Shown in pieces: positions 25,900 to 40,392 of a stretch of DNA of 64,000 nucleotides. The notes below the pieces were generated by a model. The model saw only the letters and a list, made by a program, of their open reading frames with translations, made no database searches and was not told the origin of the DNA. Both the position numbers and the translations under genes were made by a program. Source of the stretch: Jiella endophytica (GTDB lineage: Bacteria > Pseudomonadota > Alphaproteobacteria > Rhizobiales > Rhizobiaceae); the NCBI RefSeq assembly GCF_004519335.1, contig NZ_SOZD01000006.1:1-64000 (forward strand). The letters run 5' to 3'. Every line of letters begins with the position of its first letter. Within the stretch, counting starts at the first letter, position 1.

Positions 25900-26127
25900 C
25901 CCCCTCTGTCCTGCATCTCCCCCTCAAGGGGGGTGACTCCCCACCGTTTAGCAAGCGGGTTTGGTGGCATGATGGGCATCGAACGGGGTGCCTGCGGCAA
26001 GCATGGCGCAGGCGAGGCAAGTGGACGAAAAGCACCCGGGCCTTGCATCGATGTGCGAGAAGAGGTGGAAGCGCCGAAGCTGCTGATCTCCCCCCTTGAG
26101 GGGGAGATGCCGGCAGGCAGAGGGGGG
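25900..26127. repeat. Palindromic intergenic element, copy A (RIME-like)
   Basis: Left arm ccccctctgtcctgcatctcc then ccctcaagggggg (25900-25933); right arm gatctccccccttgag then ggggagatgccggcaggcag and aggggggt (26085-26127). The arms are inverted copies separated by about 150 bases of unique DNA. Copies B (32803-32977) and C (35213-35328) share the arms but not the interior. They resemble RIME-type intergenic mosaic elements of rhizobia. Confidence 0.8.
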
Positions 26128-31202: not shown

Positions 31203-32759
31203 ATGCGAAAACTCGTTGCCGCCGCGCTCGCCCTCTGCGCCATGGCACTGACGCCGCCTGCCATCGCGCAGACGCCGCCGAACGTCCTCATCGTCGGGCA
31301 GATCGCCGAGCCGAAGTCGCTGGATCCTCAGGCGGTCACCGCGACCAACGATTTCCGCATCCTGATGAACGTCTATGACGGGCTGGTGCGCTTCGAGAAG
31401 GGCACGCTCGAGGTCGAGCCGGCACTGGCAAAGAGCTGGGACATTTCCGACGACGGAAAGACCTACACCTTCCACCTGCGCGAAGGCGTCAGCTTCCAGG
31501 ACGGCACACCCTTCAACGCCGAGGCGGTGAAGTTCACCTTCGACCGCATGCTGAAGGACGACCATCCCTTCCACGACACCGGGCCGTTTCCGCTGGCCTT
31601 CTTCTTCTCCCAGGTCGCCGAAGTGACGGCCAAGGACGACAAGACCGTCGTCTTCACCCTGAAGGAGCCCTTCGCCCCCTTCCTGTCGAACCTTGCCTAT
31701 CCGACCGGGCTGATCGTCTCGCCGGCGGCCGTGAAGGAATACGGCAAGGATTTCGGCCGCCATCCGGTCGGCACCGGCGCCTTCAAGTTCGAGGGATGGG
31801 ACCCGAATTCGAAGGTCGTCGTGTCGCGCAACGACGACTACTGGGGTGGCGCACCGCAGCTCGAGGCCGTCGTCTTCCGGCCGATCGCCGACGCCAACAC
31901 CCGTGTCGCGGAGATGCTGTCGGGCGGCATCGACCTGATGGTCGAGGTTCCGCCGGACGGGCTTTCGCAGTTCAAAGACGATTCCAACTACACGGTCTAC
32001 GAACAGGCCGGACCGCATCTATGGTTCCTGATCCTCAACACCAGGGAGGGTCCGTTCTCGGACAAGCGGGTGCGCCAGGCGGTGAACTACGCCATCGACA
32101 AGAAGGCGATCACCGAGAATGTCCTGCAGGGCACGGCGACGGTCGCTGCCGGCCCGATCCCTGGTGCTTTCGAATGGGCGAATGACGGTTCGGTCAAGCC
32201 TTATCCCTACGATCCCGACAAGGCCAAGGAGCTGATCCGTCAGGCCGGCGCCGAGGGCAAGACGCTGACCTTCTACGTTCCCGAAGGCGGCTCGGGCATG
32301 CTCGATCCGGTGGCCATGGCGACGGCCATCCAGGCGGATCTGAAAAAGGTCGGCCTGCAGGTGAACATCCAGACCTATGAGTGGAACACCTATCTCGCCA
32401 ACGTCAATCCGGGGCTGAAGGGCAAGGCCGACATGGCCGAGATGGCCTGGATGACCAACGACCCGGACACGTTGCCCTTCCTGGCGCTCAGGTCCGACGC
32501 GATGCCCGAGACGGGCGGCTTCAATTCCGGCTATTATTCCAATCCGGAGGTCGACAAGCTGCTCGACGAGGCGCGCAAGACCACCGACCAGGCAAAGCGC
32601 GGCGCCTTGTACGAAAAGGTGCAGCAGATCGTCCATGACGACGCGCCTTGGGCCTTCGTCGCCAACTGGAAGCAGAACGCCGTTTCCACCTCGGCGGTGC
32701 AGGGCTTCGAGTTGGAGCCATCGTTTTTGCTGGTGCTGAAGGACGTGACTAAGGGGTGA
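31203..32759 (+). CDS. Peptide-type ABC transporter substrate-binding protein (SBP family 5)
   Basis: 518 residues: a Sec signal peptide ending PPAIAQ (about residue 22), then the family 5 fold with EPKSLDPQAVTATNDFRIL, LVRFEKGTLEVEPALAKSW, YTFHLREGVSFQDGTPFNAEAVKFTFDRM and GTGAFKFEGWDPN. These proteins feed di/oligopeptides, or less often nickel or other solutes, to Dpp/Opp-type importers. The rest of the operon follows after a 475-base gap filled by repeats. The ligand cannot be decided from sequence. Confidence 0.92.
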   Translation: MRKLVAAALALCAMALTPPAIAQTPPNVLIVGQIAEPKSLDPQAVTATNDFRILMNVYDGLVRFEKGTLEVEPALAKSWDISDDGKTYTFHLREGVSFQDGTPFNAEAVKFTFDRMLKDDHPFHDTGPFPLAFFFSQVAEVTAKDDKTVVFTLKEPFAPFLSNLAYPTGLIVSPAAVKEYGKDFGRHPVGTGAFKFEGWDPNSKVVVSRNDDYWGGAPQLEAVVFRPIADANTRVAEMLSGGIDLMVEVPPDGLSQFKDDSNYTVYEQAGPHLWFLILNTREGPFSDKRVRQAVNYAIDKKAITENVLQGTATVAAGPIPGAFEWANDGSVKPYPYDPDKAKELIRQAGAEGKTLTFYVPEGGSGMLDPVAMATAIQADLKKVGLQVNIQTYEWNTYLANVNPGLKGKADMAEMAWMTNDPDTLPFLALRSDAMPETGGFNSGYYSNPEVDKLLDEARKTTDQAKRGALYEKVQQIVHDDAPWAFVANWKQNAVSTSAVQGFELEPSFLLVLKDVTKG

Positions 32760-32802: not shown

Positions 32803-32977
32803 CCCCCCTCTGCCCTGCCGGGCATCTCCCCCTCAAGGGGGGAGATCGGCAGCTACCGGCCCCGAATTTGCAGCGGGTCCGCTTGAGCGAGTTGCGTCCT
32901 CGACAGGCAGGCAGGACGTCTGCGCAGGACCGATCTCCCCCCTTGAGGGGGAGATGTCCGGCAGGACAGAGGGGGGC
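32803..32977. repeat. Palindromic intergenic element, copy B (RIME-like)
   Basis: Left arm 32803-32848 (cccccctctgccctgccggg, catctccccctcaagggg, ggagatcgg) and right arm 32932-32977 (gatctccccccttgaggggg, agatgtccggcaggacag, aggggggc) are inverted copies around about 85 unique bases. It sits between the substrate-binding protein and the permease genes of one operon, where the arms could form a long mRNA stem and set the ratio of their transcripts. Confidence 0.82.
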
Positions 32978-33234: not shown

Positions 33235-34179
33235 ATGACCGCCACCATCGCCAGGCGCCTCCTTGCCGCCATTCCCGTCCTGTTCGGCCTCTCGGTCATC
33301 GTCTTCCTGATGATCGCCCTCATTCCCGGCGATCCCGCCACCGCCATTCTCGGCTCCTATGCGACGCCGGAAAACGTCGCGCGGCTCAACGCCTCGCTCG
33401 GTTTGGACAAAAGCCTGCCGCAGCAATATCTCGCCTGGATCTCGGGCGTTCTTTCAGGCGATTTCGGCCGCTCCTACGCGCTGAACCGACCGGTGATCGA
33501 CATCGTTACCGAGCGGTTTTCGGCAACGCTGCTTCTCGCCGGCGCCTCGCTCGTCCTCGCCACGGTCTTCGGCCTCCTCGCCGGCATCGTCTCGGCGGTG
33601 CGGCAGTTCGGCTTCGCCGACAAGGCGATCACGCTGGCCGTCCTGATCGGCATCTCGGTGCCGTCCTTCTGGCTGGGGCTCCTGCTCATCCTGTTCTTCG
33701 CGGTGAAGATCAAGCTCTTCCCGGCGAGCGGCATGGTGGCGATCTATGGCGGCGGCGGCCCGCTCGACATCCTGCATCACCTTGTCCTGCCGGCGATCAC
33801 CCTCGCCCTCGTCGCCACCGGCGTCATTGCCCGCCTCACCCGCACGGCGATGCTCGAAGTGCTGCGCCAGGACTATATCCGCACTGCCCGCGCCAAGGGG
33901 CTCAGCGAGCGGCGGGTGATCTATCGGCACGCCTTCATGGCGGCGCTGGTCTCGGTGATCCCGGTGATCGGCATTCAGGCCGGCTTCGTCCTCGGCGGCG
34001 CGGTCTATGTCGAGACGGTGTTCCAGTGGCCGGGCATCGGCGCGATGCTGGTCAACGCCATCTCGCAGCGCGACATCCTGCTCGTCCAGGGCGGCGTGCT
34101 GGTCGTCGCCGCCTCCTATGTCCTCTTCAACCTCCTTGCCGACATCTGCCAGACGCTGCTCGATCCGAGGCTGAAATGA
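33235..34179 (+). CDS. Peptide ABC transporter permease, DppB type
   Basis: 314 residues with six membrane spans in the DppB/OppB layout: the first span ATIARRLLAAIPVLFGLSVIVFLM, then ALIPGDPA, TLAVLIGISVPSFWLGLLL and the cytoplasmic EAA-like loop VLRQDYIRTARAKGLSERRVIYRHAF that docks the ATPase. It pairs with the following C-type permease as a heterodimer. Its stop overlaps the next start (ATGA, 34176-34179), so the two are translationally coupled. Confidence 0.93.
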   Translation: MTATIARRLLAAIPVLFGLSVIVFLMIALIPGDPATAILGSYATPENVARLNASLGLDKSLPQQYLAWISGVLSGDFGRSYALNRPVIDIVTERFSATLLLAGASLVLATVFGLLAGIVSAVRQFGFADKAITLAVLIGISVPSFWLGLLLILFFAVKIKLFPASGMVAIYGGGGPLDILHHLVLPAITLALVATGVIARLTRTAMLEVLRQDYIRTARAKGLSERRVIYRHAFMAALVSVIPVIGIQAGFVLGGAVYVETVFQWPGIGAMLVNAISQRDILLVQGGVLVVAASYVLFNLLADICQTLLDPRLK

Positions 34180-36386
34180 CTGCCGCGGCCGCATCATCCC
34201 GTGACGATCGGAGTTCGGGCCGTGAGCGCCGCGAGCGTCCGTCGACCTTCGCGCTGATCCTCAACAACCGGCTCGCCGCGGCGGGCCTCGTGGTGCTCTG
34301 CCTCATCGTGATCGCCGCTCTGGCAGCGCCGATCCTGCCGCTCGCCGATCCGAACGCCACCGATCCCGCGAGCCGCCTTGCGCCGCTTCTTTCGCCCGGC
34401 CACCTCCTCGGCACCGACGCCCTCGGCCGCGACATGCTCTCCCGCCTCGTCTGGGGAACGCGCGTCTCGCTCGTCGTCGGCGTCTCGGCTTCCCTGATCG
34501 CCGCGATCTTCGGCTCGGCCATCGGCCTCGTCGCCGGCTATGCGGGCGGTCGCACCGACCAGATGCTGATGCGGCTGATCGATCTGACGATGGCCTTTCC
34601 CTACATCCTGCTCGCCCTCGCCATCGTCGCCATCCTCGGCCCGGGGCTGATCAACGCGCTCTACGCCATCGCCATCGTCAACGTGCCCTTCTTCGCCCGC
34701 AATATCCGCGGCATCACCGTCGGCCTCGCGCGGCGCGAGTTCGTCGACGCCGCCCGGCTCTCCGGCAAGGGTCCGCTGACGATCCTCTGGTCGGACATCC
34801 TGCCCAACGTCCTGCCGACCATCGTCATCACGCTGTCGACCACAGTCGGCTGGATGATCCTAGAGACGGCGGGCCTCTCCTTCCTCGGCCTCGGCGCCCA
34901 GCCGCCCCAGGCCGATCTCGGCTCGATGCTCGGCGACGGACGCAAGGTGATGTTCACCGCGCCGACGATCTCGCTGGTGCCCGGCCTGATGATCTTCCTG
35001 ATCGTCATGAGCATCAACCTGATCGGCGACGGGATCCGGGATGCGCTCGATCCACGGCTGCGGTCCGGCGCGCTGGCGCGGCCGGCCTTTCGGACGAAGG
35101 TGGCGAAGGGACGGAGGAAGGCAGACACTGACGGGGAGCAGGAGCCATTGCCTGCCGACGCGGGCGGCGTTGGACTCGACCCTCTGCCTGCCGGCGAAGG
35201 CGGCAACCGCTACCCCCCTCTGCCCTGCCGGGCATCTCCCCCTCAAGGGGGGAGATCACCAAGCGTCGGCCTTTCAGAACGATCGATCTCCCCCCTTGAG
35301 GGGGAGATGCCGGCAGGCAGAGGGGGGTTCCAAGGACGCGACGGCGACGATGTGGCCTCCGATCGCAACGACAATCCCGTCCTCGCCGTCCGCGGCCTCG
35401 AAACCGACTTCCACATCGGCCGCTCCGTCTACCACGCCTCCAACGGCGTCGACCTGACGATCCGCCGCGGCGAGTGCCTCTGCCTCGTCGGCGAATCCGG
35501 CTCGGGCAAGTCGGTAACGGCGATGAGCGTCATGGGTCTCGTGCCCTCGCCGCCGGGCGTCATTGCCGGCGGGCGCATCGGCTTCAAGGGCGAGGACCTT
35601 GCCGACGCCCCGGACCGGCGCATCCGCGAGCTTCGCGGCGGCGCCGTGTCCCATGTCTTCCAGGACCCGCTGGCGACACTCCACCCGCTGTTTGCCGTCG
35701 GCGACCAGATCGTCGAGGCGATCCGCGCCCATCAGCCTCTCGGCAAACGGGCTGCGGAGGCGAAGGCGCGCGACCTCCTTGATCTCGTGCGCATCCCGAA
35801 TGCCGCCCAGCGGATGAAGGCCCTGCCCCACGAGCTCTCAGGAGGCCTGCGCCAGCGCGTCTCCATCGCCATGGCGCTCGCCAACGATCCCGAGCTGATC
35901 ATCGCCGACGAGCCGACGACGGCCCTCGACGTGACGGTGCAGGCGGAGGTGCTGCGGCTGCTCGATACGCTCCGCCGCGAGCGCGACACCGCCGTCCTGT
36001 TCATCACCCACGATTTCGGCGTCGTCTCCGAAATCGCCGACCGGGTGGCGGTGATGTATGCCGGCCGGATCGTCGAGACCGGCGAGACGGCCGAGATCCT
36101 CACCCGGCCGGCGCATCCCTACACCCGCATGCTGATCGACTGCGTGCCGGTGATGGGCGAGCCGGAGCGCCGCCTCGACGCCGTGCCCGGCCGGCCGCCG
36201 GCGGTGAACCGTCTGCCGCCCGGCTGCGCCTTCGCCGATCGCTGCCCGCGGGTCCAGCCGGACTGCCGCGAGGGCGAGATCCCGCTCGAGACGAAACGCG
36301 GCAGTCTTGAGGCCCGCTGCCTGCATCCGCTTGGCCCCGGCGAGGCGCTGGCCGGCGGGGCCGATCCTCTGGAGGCGCGGCCATGA
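34176..36386 (+). CDS. Fused peptide ABC permease (DppC-type) and ATP-binding protein (DppD-type)
   Basis: One uninterrupted frame of 736 codons. Residues 1-290 are a DppC-type permease ([20 protein letters not shown] first span; EAA-loop [20 protein letters not shown]; normal C-terminus near DALDPRLR). Residues about 291-400 are a hydrophilic linker; residues 346-385 of it are palindromic element C translated ([13 protein letters not shown] ... [13 protein letters not shown]). From about residue 400 there is a full ATPase: Walker A GESGSGKS, signature LSGGLRQR, Walker B LIIADEPT, and the C-terminal [13 protein letters not shown] of peptide-importer ATPases. Internal reinitiation could yield a separate ATPase (GTG near 35352, or ATG 35308). 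Permease/ATPase fusions of this type exist elsewhere; a repeat serving as the linker is the notable part. Confidence 0.88.
35213..35328. repeat. Palindromic element, copy C, inside the permease-ATPase open frame
   Basis: Left arm 35213-35258 (cccccctctgccctgccggg, catctccccctcaagggg, ggagatc) and right arm 35285-35328 (gatctccccccttgaggggg, agatgccggcaggcag, aggggggtt) match copies A and B, with only about 26 bases between. It contains no stop in the reading frame of the fusion and contributes about 39 residues to it. Confidence 0.85.
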
Positions 36387-37360
36387 CCCCGCCGTCGAAC
36401 GTCATCGAGATCCGCGACCTTGCCCGGACCTTCGGCGGCGGCCGCACGATCCTCGGCACGAAGAAGCCGCAGCTCACCGCCGTGCGCGGCGTCTCGCTCG
36501 ATCTGAGAAAGGGCGAGACCCTTGGCATCGTCGGCGAATCCGGCTGCGGCAAGTCCACCCTTGCCCGCATGCTGGTCGGCCTCGACAGGCCGACGTCAGG
36601 CGCCATCCGCCTCGACGGCAAGGATCTTTCGTCATCCGGCACCAGAGCGCTGGCGAGACGCGTGCAATATGTCTTCCAGGACCCGGTGTCGTCGCTCAAT
36701 CCGCGCCAGACCATCCGCGACATCCTCGAGGCGCCGATGCGCCATCTCCTCGGCCTCGGCAGCAAGGAGCGCAAAGAGCGGCTGGAGAAGCTGATCGAGG
36801 ACGTGAACCTCAGGCCGGAATTCCTTGATCGCTATCCACACGAGTTTTCCGGTGGCCAGGCCCAGCGCATCGGCATCGCAAGAGCGCTCGCCGCCGAGCC
36901 GGACGTCGTCGTCCTCGACGAGCCGGTCTCGGCCCTCGACGTTTCGGTGCAGGCGCAGGTCCTCAACCTCCTCGACCGGCTGAAGCGCGAGCGCGGCCTC
37001 ACCTACGTCTTCATCAGCCACGACCTTGCGGTGGTCGAGAGCGTCGCGACGCGTGTGGCGGTGATGTATTTCGGCGAAATCGTCGAGACGGCGCCGGCGC
37101 GCGAACTCTTCCGCGCGCCGCTCCATCCCTATACGAACCTCCTGATCCGCTCCGCCCCGGTGCCGAACCGCAAGCGGCAGAAGGCCTCGGGTGACTCGGG
37201 CGAACTCCCCGACCCCTACGATCCGCCGCCCGGCTGCCCCTTCGCGCCGCGCTGCCCACGGGCGGAAGACAACTGCCGCGCGGCGATGCCGGCGCTGGAG
37301 GCGAAGGATCGGGGCAAAGACCATCGCGCGGCGTGCTTTCATCCGCTTTCAAGGCGATGA
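36383..37360 (+). CDS. Peptide ABC transporter ATP-binding protein, DppF type
   Basis: 325 residues: Walker [11 protein letters not shown]-loop [15 protein letters not shown], signature [15 protein letters not shown], Walker [13 protein letters not shown], switch His FISHDLAVV, and the oligopeptide-type C-terminal cysteine region [17 protein letters not shown], which in some relatives binds an iron-sulfur cluster. The start overlaps the previous stop (ATGA), the tight coupling expected for the two ATPases of a Dpp importer. Confidence 0.94.
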
Positions 37361-37761: not shown

Positions 37762-38868
37762 TCAGATCGCGCCCTGGCGCTGCTGGATCATCATGAAGGT
37801 GTCGAAGTTGTACTCCGCCAGCTGATCCCAGAGATAGCTCTCGCGGCGGAAGCCCGTCTGGCTGTCGTAGAGCGTCTTGAAGTCGGCATTCCTGGCGGAA
37901 ATGTCGGTCATCACCTCGCCGGCCGCCTTGAAGCTCGCCTGCATGATCTCCTGGCCGAAGGGGCGAAGCTGCGCGCCGCTTCCGACAAGGCTGCGGATCG
38001 CTTTCGGATTCTCCCAGTCATAGGTCGCCAGCATGTTGCCGTTGGCCGCCTCGCAGGCCGCCTTCAGCACCGCCTGATAGGGCTTCGGCAGGTCGTTCCA
38101 CTTGTCGAGCGAGATCATCGCATGGGTCGCGGCACCGCCCTCCCACCAGGCGGGATAGTAGTAATACGGCGCGACCTTCACGAAGCCGAGCTTCTCGTCG
38201 TCATAGGGCCCGACGAATTCGACCGCGTCGAGCGTGCCTTTTTCCAGCGCCGCATAGATGTCGCCGGCCGGGATCTGCTGCGGGACGACACCGAGCTTCG
38301 CCATCACCTCGCCGGCAAGACCGGCAATCCGCATCTTCAGACCCTTCATGTCGGCAAGCGAATTGATTTCCTTACGATACCATCCGCCCATCTGGGCGCC
38401 GGTATTGCCGGCCGGGCGGGCGAAGATGCCCTGCTTTTCGAAGAACTTGTCCAGCAGCTCGTTGCCGCCGCCCCGATAGAACCAGGCATTCTGCTGGCGG
38501 GCATTGAGCATGAAGGGAACCGTGGTTCCGAAGGCGAAGGTCGGGTCCTTGCCGACATAATAGTAGGCGGCGGTGTGGCCCATCTCGACCGTGTCGCTCT
38601 GCACCGCATCGAGCACCTGGCCGCCCGGCACGATCTCCCCGGCAGCGAAGGGCTGGATCTCGAAGGCGCCATCGGTCATCTCGCCGACATAGCGGGCGAT
38701 GTACTCGGAGGCGCCGAACAGCGCCGGCAGCGAACGCGGGAAGGACGAGACGCAGCGCCACTGGATCTTCGGCTTGTCCTGCGCGAGCGCGGGAGCTGCA
38801 AGGCTGGAGGCCGCACCGAGGCCGGCGGCGCCGCTGGCGACACCGCGGATGAATTTGCGTCTGTCCAT
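37762..38868 (-). CDS. TRAP transporter substrate-binding protein (DctP/TakP type), paralogue 1
   Basis: 368 residues with a twin-arginine-like leader (DRRKFIRGVASGAAG...APALAQ) and the DctP fold. Family signatures are [61 protein letters not shown] (the Arg of KMRIAG contacts the ligand carboxylate in known structures), [14 protein letters not shown] and YYYYPAWWEGG. The last two resemble TakP, a 2-oxoacid binder, so an organic acid ligand is likely. No DctQ/DctM membrane genes are adjacent. Start ATG 38866-38868. Confidence 0.9.
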   Translation of the reverse strand: MDRRKFIRGVASGAAGLGAASSLAAPALAQDKPKIQWRCVSSFPRSLPALFGASEYIARYVGEMTDGAFEIQPFAAGEIVPGGQVLDAVQSDTVEMGHTAAYYYVGKDPTFAFGTTVPFMLNARQQNAWFYRGGGNELLDKFFEKQGIFARPAGNTGAQMGGWYRKEINSLADMKGLKMRIAGLAGEVMAKLGVVPQQIPAGDIYAALEKGTLDAVEFVGPYDDEKLGFVKVAPYYYYPAWWEGGAATHAMISLDKWNDLPKPYQAVLKAACEAANGNMLATYDWENPKAIRSLVGSGAQLRPFGQEIMQASFKAAGEVMTDISARNADFKTLYDSQTGFRRESYLWDQLAEYNFDTFMMIQQRQGAI

Positions 38869-39198
38869 GAGTTTCACTTTCTATCGCAACGCACGAAGCC
38901 GCCCGGGTGGGCGGCGATACCATCGGAGGCCAGACGCAAACAGCGGGAACTGCTCGCGACGAGACGTCCTTGAAAGGCTGGGAAAAGGCCGTCGCACGCC
39001 CATCAAGAAGGGCATGGCGATCGGCTGCCGATCGTCGCGCGCGACCATAGGCGTGGTGCGGTAAAACGCAAGCCTTCGCAGAGGTGTGGAAGGTGCGTTT
39101 CCGGCAACGCGGCGACGGGTTCGGGGCAGCGGTCGGAGAATTCGCAGCGACCCGCGCGGGAGCCGGCGCGGCCCCTCGAGGCCGCGCCGCTTGAAAGA
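38869..39198. other. Gap between the two TRAP-binding-protein genes with GC-rich hairpins
   Basis: About 330 bases upstream of paralogue 1 and downstream of paralogue 2. It holds a 7-bp hairpin GCCGCCC-gggt-GGGCGGC in the leader of paralogue 1 (38898-38915) and the hairpin at 39164-39189. No gene is seen. Confidence 0.45.
39164..39189 (-). terminator. Hairpin downstream of TRAP-binding protein paralogue 2
   Basis: CGGCGCGGCC - 6-base loop - GGCCGCGCCG is a perfect 10-bp stem, 10 bases past the stop of paralogue 2 on the minus strand. It lacks a T-tract, so it may act as a 3' stabiliser or partial terminator between the two genes. Confidence 0.45.

Positions 39199-40392
<1,194 letters not shown>

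Follow-up and report, generated by a model that had tools for sequence, protein, structure and literature searches.

An in-frame palindromic element in the linker of an old permease/ATPase fusion gene of Jiella endophytica

Results and discussion

The dppCD fusion gene

The sequence analyzed here (the window) is 64,000 nt from Jiella endophytica, positions 1–64,000 of contig NZ_SOZD01000006.1. It contains a gene, termed dppCD, that joins a DppC-type permease and a DppD-type ATPase of an ATP-binding cassette (ABC) peptide importer in a single open frame of 736 codons, from an ATG at 34176 to a TGA at 36384–36386, as seen in the open reading frame (ORF) listing and the translation. A palindromic element of 116 nt is situated in the linker between the two parts. 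The preferred interpretation, with a probability of about 0.85 on comparative sequence evidence, is that dppCD makes one polypeptide, that the fusion is old, and that the element entered the linker later and survived in frame. The fusion, its wide range, the later arrival of the element, the conservation of the frame and a relaxed amino-acid constraint are directly found in the comparisons given below.

Analysis of the 736-residue protein by Pfam reveals BPD_transp_1 (residues 113–296), ABC_tran (423–582) and oligo_HPY (633–697), i.e., permease and ATPase domains within one unbroken frame. The full-length mass is reckoned as 77.7 kDa. An earlier note on this DNA had described an uninterrupted DppC-type/DppD-type frame in which the element supplies about 39 residues. 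Both descriptions are correct, the first by ORF, translation and Pfam and the second by reading of the sequence, and the coordinates that the note gives for the frame and the element hold as well. Coordinates of all features are in Table 1.

Age and distribution of the fusion

A search of the bacterial family matched 32 of 151 genomes at E values up to 1e-105, and the matching genomes were examined further. Thirty-seven loci were read, 10 in the Jiella group and 27 in other genera of this family; the matched genomes G050 and G053 gave no locus. The Jiella group comprises J. endophytica, J. sonneratiae, J. avicenniae, J. mangrovi, J. pacifica, J. pelagia, J. flava, Jiella sp. LLJ827, Aurantimonas sp. 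22II-16-19i and the metagenome-assembled genome (MAG) Fulvimarina sp. NAT173.

Orthologous single-frame permease/ATPase fusions are present at 36 of the 37 loci, the sole exception being J. pelagia. The distant matches L086 and L087 are not single-frame. The distance from the motif GDG(I/V)RD to the P-loop is 76–79 residues in all 27 loci of other genera, where the element is absent; further named loci have values of 80 (F. manganoxydans), 78 (Chthonobacter) and 85 (a MAG with a gammaproteobacterial label). Such proteins are named "dipeptide/oligopeptide/nickel ABC transporter permease/ATP-binding protein" by NCBI, a name also found on matches in other genera.

Because fused loci are spread across the family and the NCBI name is already in use, the fusion is judged to be old and known: it is older than the genus, and its type is not unusual. 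The earlier note had described the element as bridging the two subunits, an arrangement that it called unusual, and had offered the loss of a stop codon as an alternative. Neither proposal is upheld. A recent stop-codon loss is rejected by the 27 fused loci out of 27 in other genera. The element as a bridge is likewise rejected, since element-free relatives carry the same fusion with a shorter linker; by this comparison the element lengthened an existing tether and did not make it.

Arrival of the element and evolution of the linker

Within the Jiella group, the corresponding motif-to-P-loop span measures 78 residues in J. flava, 78 in LLJ827 and 102 in J. pacifica, all without the element, and 137, 139, 155, 156, 156 and 162 in the six element carriers with an intact frame. 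Between one pair of anchors there are 88 codons in J. endophytica versus 11 in the element-free J. flava and Jiella sp. LLJ827. The earlier note had proposed a check of relatives for both the fusion and the element. The fusion was found as described above; the element is absent from the 27 loci of other genera and from J. flava, LLJ827 and J. pacifica, and is present in 7 of 10 Jiella-group genomes, J. pelagia included.

A tree built from 613 non-linker codons, with J. pelagia left out, groups the sampled element carriers and J. pacifica apart from J. flava and LLJ827 (ultrafast bootstrap 93 for DNA, 72 for protein) and places J. pacifica beside the Aurantimonas and Fulvimarina records (93 DNA, 87 protein). 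J. sonneratiae, in one clade, and Aurantimonas and Fulvimarina, in the other, share an extra 33-nt hairpin piece within the element. One origin is favored because of this shared piece, i.e., a single insertion later than the branching of J. flava and LLJ827, which was probably followed by an in-frame loss in J. pacifica.

The junction stretches in nine genomes are 213, 285, 390, 396, 444, 447 and 465 nt, seven lengths that are all multiples of three. Seven lengths imply at least six changes, and the probability of frame keeping by chance is (1/3)^6 = 0.0014, or 0.007 with J. pelagia included as a seventh change that did not keep the frame. The ratio of nonsynonymous to synonymous substitution (dN/dS) is 0.54–1.45 in the linker versus 0.10–0.23 in both domains in six of six pairs, which have species in common and are therefore not independent of one another; in the J. 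endophytica–J. sonneratiae pair the flipped element described below was aligned as it stands. The frame of the linker is kept while its residues drift, a relaxed amino-acid constraint. It is conservation, and not openness alone, that marks the fusion frame as real by these comparisons, because the linker stays in frame in nine of the 10 Jiella-group genomes across seven lengths and all 27 loci read from other genera are fused.

The element in J. endophytica resembles those of its sisters more closely when reversed. Its reverse complement scores 72, 74 and 77 (forward 60, 64 and 54) against the elements of J. avicenniae, J. mangrovi and J. pelagia, 53.5 and 55 (forward 35.5 and 32) against Aurantimonas and Fulvimarina, and only 46.5 (forward 44) against J. 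sonneratiae. The loop is closer to short-loop copies at other loci of the genus (up to 23 of 28) than to the sisters (15–19 of 27). The element thus seems either to have been inverted in place or to have been swapped for another copy. A short-loop (27-nt) subtype is present at other loci in several Jiella-group genomes. The usual gap between paired cores in J. endophytica is 82–96 nt, and among the copies compared the dppCD copy alone has a gap of 29.

One polypeptide or two

The C-terminus of DppC-type permeases is cytoplasmic, on the side where the ATPase functions. The fusion is therefore topologically possible. The cytoplasmic C-terminus of the permease would be tied via a flexible linker to the ATPase. 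With DppB, DppF and a binding protein, a likely assembly comparable to E. coli DppBCDF, the DppC-D fusion would make up a peptide importer of the usual kind with a covalent link between one of its ATPases and one of its permeases. The element would have landed in the linker in the common ancestor of most Jiella-group members and survived where the stretch is tolerant, with the frame kept and no stop in that frame. It would later have drifted with length changes in threes, to be lost, probably, in J. pacifica and flipped or replaced in J. endophytica; the insert probably adds slack only. Here we infer single-chain translation as well as the mobility and neutrality of the insert, and take topology and assembly from knowledge of the transporter family.

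Several observations weigh against this interpretation. The linker of J. pelagia is out of frame (404 nt, not a multiple of three). An open linker is found by chance in 0.24 of first-order Markov sequences for one GC-rich genome, and an open frame alone was rejected as enough proof. The loss in J. pacifica is not forced, as two separate insertions would need an equal number of events. In 29 of 36 loci the 25 codons that lead up to the ATPase include an ATG, GTG or TTG, and in 14 an ATG. The AlphaFold model of dppCD is poor (mean pLDDT, the predicted local distance difference test, of 50.3 from an alignment of 13 sequences); residues 311–390 have the lowest pLDDT (block means 23–31) and no secondary structure in this overall weak model, which speaks for low confidence in the linker and for nothing more. 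The record of J. pelagia HL-NP1, listed as a complete genome with 84% estimated completeness, shows several further frame breaks in the dppCD ATPase. These breaks and the estimated completeness suggest assembly errors or indels.

A single chain may be made and then cut by a protease in the linker to yield separate mature subunits, with the element as a longer cleavable spacer. The linker is long, fast-evolving and hydrophilic, as such a spacer could be, but no linker stretch past the permease tail is conserved, and the short linker of other genera has no processing site obvious by eye. Cleavage is considered unlikely.

Two proteins from one frame would result if the ATPase came mostly from internal initiation, at GTG 35352 or at ATG 35307 within the element, with the long frame incidental; reinitiation of this kind had been suggested in the earlier note. 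This has a low likelihood. GTG 35352 has an AGGA upstream in J. endophytica, where a second product from it is possible, and the start codons before the ATPase counted above are in its favor. However, a start with a Shine-Dalgarno-like match of at least four bases is found in that 25-codon interval in only 11 of 36 loci, and five of the nine Jiella-group loci with an intact frame lack all three start codons there, so that an internal start is not conserved. In addition, the frame is kept through the six or more length changes, and no stop separates the halves in 36 of 37 loci.

It is similarly improbable that the element is kept for its hairpins in the mRNA, e.g., to slow ribosomes between domains or to stabilize the transcript. 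Its very stable fold (z of -11.3 as DNA) and its presence in 7 of 10 Jiella-group genomes would agree with such a use. Against it are its absence from J. pacifica, J. flava and LLJ827, its partial degradation in the Fulvimarina MAG, where one of two cores is recognized, and its occurrence in loops of unrelated genes, which fits passive spread. An assembly or sequencing artefact that joined two genes can practically be dismissed: the frame breaks here in one relative, J. pelagia, but the fusion is present in nine Jiella-group genomes and 27 other loci.

Properties of the element

The element and its near flanks (35205–35335), folded as single-stranded DNA, have a free energy of -58.4 kcal/mol with z = -11.3, and none of 200 shuffled sequences is as good. 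A search of the 5.25 Mb genome with the whole element gives 159 matches, and a hairpin pattern that permits up to two mismatches gives 66 forward and 64 reverse matches. A looser pattern yielded the 130 hairpin cores examined here, which form 66 clusters. The element is a strong inverted repeat with many genomic copies. An Rfam search with it returned 10 matches at E values of 1 or less, each of them to a microRNA model and under the gathering score; a known structured RNA was rejected accordingly. No target-site duplication or transposase is obvious by eye in the linker alignment, in which no systematic search was made.

The arm of the usual element is free of stops in five of six readings. 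J. avicenniae, J. mangrovi, J. sonneratiae, Aurantimonas and Fulvimarina read the right arm in the sixth frame, where the usual TTGA has a stop; these five genomes have TTGT or TTGC in its place, a change from TGA to TGT or TGC (Cys). A 171-codon frame on the minus strand crosses the dppCD copy of the element.

Element matches are present in 179 of 72,556 plasmid records, chiefly from Rhizobium (71) and Sinorhizobium (66), and the element type is common in rhizobial plasmids by this search. A plasmid search with the coding peptide hit 2 of the 72,556 records, both of which lack an annotated gene at the match, and yielded no coding copies beyond the Jiella group. A Shinella match is listed under an ATPase gene, with overlap limited to the first bases of that gene.

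In-frame copies in other conserved genes

Twenty-five of the 66 clusters are crossed by a frame that stays open for 60 codons or more to either side, and all 25 were scanned with Pfam. In five the element is located between matched parts of one protein: DppCD, BchB, CobN, UvrD and isoleucyl-tRNA synthetase (IleRS). The element is thus in frame inside several unrelated conserved genes. The other 20 have no Pfam domain on both sides, and most of these open frames are probably spurious in a GC-rich genome. Candidate sites are three clusters with a domain on one side (a second CobN site, an ATP-dependent DNA ligase and TctB) and a fourth with a GcrA match below the Pfam cut-off. At the ligase locus (L012:119-1984:-) a single hairpin core is in frame upstream of the ligase domain and may lie before the start of the gene.

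BchB (TIGR01278) and CobN (TIGR02257) score above NCBIfam cut-offs; IleRS is identified as a class I tRNA synthetase by Pfam and as isoleucyl by the names of its PDB matches. The inserts fall between aligned segments of known structures. In structure-sequence alignment the UvrD insert is unaligned between PcrA residues 241 and 245, and the BchB insert is unaligned between 242 and 248 of 8vqh. In 1ffy, the best-matching isoleucyl enzyme, IleRS site 1 is within a gap at 257–309 and site 2 is between the adjacent residues 418 and 419. Empty sites occur in relatives; in J. flava, all six sites lack a hairpin core.

For ten genomes and six sites, 58 of 60 anchor-to-anchor stretches are multiples of three, both exceptions being from J. 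pelagia; without this genome the count is 54 of 54. All 60 are free of stops when read in the upstream frame. The four enzymes would keep their frame simply as functional genes, and it is for DppCD that frame keeping is informative.

The sites are occupied differently in different species. BchB (L009:186-2129:-, J. endophytica contig C22, about 60.4 kb) has the element in frame at residues of about 195–250. Hairpin cores are also present at this site in J. avicenniae, J. mangrovi, J. sonneratiae and LLJ827, and J. flava, J. pacifica, J. pelagia, Aurantimonas and Fulvimarina have none. CobN (L021:3-3044:- and L188:1-2472:-, contig C21, about 1052.6 and 1054.8 kb) has three cores in a mid-protein loop and a further cluster of three upstream in the same frame; the mid loop in LLJ827 has a different-looking repeat.

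In UvrD (L181:2-2575:-, contig C11, about 658.6 kb) the element is in frame between helicase motifs. Two cores are found at this site in J. endophytica, J. mangrovi and Aurantimonas and one in J. avicenniae, J. pelagia and J. sonneratiae; J. pacifica, Fulvimarina and LLJ827 have another repeat, with a PEPVEGRG or PELVEGRG reading. IleRS (L199:3-2831:-, contig C26, about 6.2–7.1 kb) carries the element at one place and a second repeat type at another. Site 2 contains the element in J. sonneratiae (two cores), a remnant in J. avicenniae (one core) and the second type in J. endophytica, J. mangrovi and J. pacifica.

The second-type insert in J. endophytica is 82 residues. A 246-nt IleRS query, 160 nt of it in the insert, gives 123 matches in its own genome, itself included. 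Its recurrent pieces (21–66 and 108–154) are inside the insert, and each matches the opposite strand of the other; a stretch that is half inside the insert folds with a z of -3.1. The other repeat types are palindromic and repeated as judged from appearance only.

These observations lean toward the view that loops of DppCD, BchB, CobN, UvrD and IleRS are standing landing sites that take different repeat types, in frame, in different species. If true, small palindromes would be a running source of new core-protein segments in free-living alphaproteobacteria, on a Rickettsia-like scale.

Comparison with known systems

The protein WP_113156569.1 of Nitratireductor sp. OM-1, named by NCBI as a permease/ATP-binding fusion, likewise has permease and ATPase in one frame and is matched over both halves. 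Its operon has the order binding protein, permease, fusion, second ATPase, like that of dppCD. It is 645 residues as reckoned from coordinates, versus 736 in dppCD. By sequence, chains of the structures 8z1v, 8j5q and 8wd9 match the two halves of dppCD as DppC-type and DppD-type; unlike in dppCD, the permease in all three is a chain of its own. Two ATPase stretches are matched within chain D of both 8j5q and 8wd9. These two are Mycobacterium tuberculosis DppABCD/OppABCD structures, and 8z1v is Escherichia coli DppBCDF.

Passages of PMC10969869, PMC6649704 and PMC2229807 describe Rickettsia palindromic elements (RPEs), repeats of about 100–150 bp that form part of the reading frame of conserved genes unrelated to one another. 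An RPE-bearing guanylate kinase is translated and active according to text of PMC2229807, and part of PMC10969869 states that in-frame fusions by intragenic miniature inverted-repeat transposable elements are not uncommon and that RPEs stand out by their frequency. The likeness to RPEs drawn in the earlier note is apt, in that a repeat is in frame in unrelated conserved genes. This likeness is one of organization. The RPEs are from another bacterial order, and the Jiella element differs in that 5 of 66 clusters are shown to be within genes and that different repeats use the same sites.

In-frame coding repeats are also mentioned in passages of PMC2229807 for Wolbachia (via references), the 107-bp Correia elements of Neisseria, and ERIC and RU of enterobacteria, and excerpts of PMC5896051 describe in-frame gene fusions by the QMITEs of Coxiella. 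Like the Jiella element, these are small inverted repeats that add in-frame residues to host proteins, but the hosts and element families are different, and the Jiella element and genes are not described in those portions of the papers. In-frame repeats are best known from Rickettsia, with the further cases in Wolbachia, Neisseria, enterobacteria and Coxiella, as far as these excerpts extend.

Rhizobial RIMEs are treated as intergenic in text of PMC2573895. The Jiella element may be comparable to them in that its matches are found in rhizobial plasmids; it departs from an intergenic location in that 5 of its 66 clusters are inside conserved genes, a position not shown for the remaining 61. The REPs of Bradyrhizobium are placed in intergenic regions and 3' untranslated regions in passages of PMC5082802. 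No report of coding palindromes in Hyphomicrobiales, or of rhizobial repeats as coding, was found in the searches made of the open-access literature.

The fusion and in-frame repeats in proteins are already known. New are this element and its host, and the use of the same sites in core enzymes by different repeats. An element common in rhizobial plasmids, along with other repeats, is situated inside an ABC importer and four conserved enzymes that include IleRS and UvrD. Because the genus has named cultured species, some without each insert, the conversion of a repeat to protein and the tolerance of linkers and loops are directly testable.

Genes flanking dppCD

The dppCD gene is part of a likely operon (Table 1). 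Its ATPase part matches positions 36083–37351 at 40% identity. In addition to the copy in the dppA-dppB gap, also delimited as 32824–32955, a further copy of the element in the window is at 25915–26108, with no frame open for 60 codons on both sides.

Table 1. Features of dppCD and the surrounding region (positions in the window)
Feature	Position	Strand	Basis and remarks
DppA-like peptide/solute-binding protein	31203..32759	+	First gene of likely operon; appearance and Nitratireductor operon order
Palindromic element copy in dppA-dppB gap	32803..32976	.	No frame open 60 codons on both sides
DppB-like first permease	33235..34179	+	Stop overlaps dppCD ATG; assigned from operon order
dppCD, permease/ATPase fusion	34176..36386	+	736 codons; ORF, Pfam, orthologous fusions
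DppC-type permease part	34176..35063	+	End ...DALDPRLR; Pfam PF00528 and alignment
Permease tail, 11 residues	35064..35096	+	Comparable tails (SGALxRPxxRT and variants) in fused relatives
Variable linker, 92 codons	35097..35372	+	Alignment, sequence, dN/dS
Two-hairpin palindromic element, 27-nt loop	35213..35328	.	116 nt, about 39 codons, read in frame
In-frame GTG with AGGA upstream	35352..35354	+	Candidate internal ATPase start, non-conserved
DppD-type ATPase part with oligo_HPY tail	35373..36383	+	Pfam, PDB sequence matches
DppF-like second ATPase	36383..37360	+	Start overlaps dppCD stop

Two neighboring, similar ORFs at 37762–38877 and 39199–40302 on the minus strand have, by eye, the look of a periplasmic binding protein of the TRAP (tripartite ATP-independent periplasmic) type.

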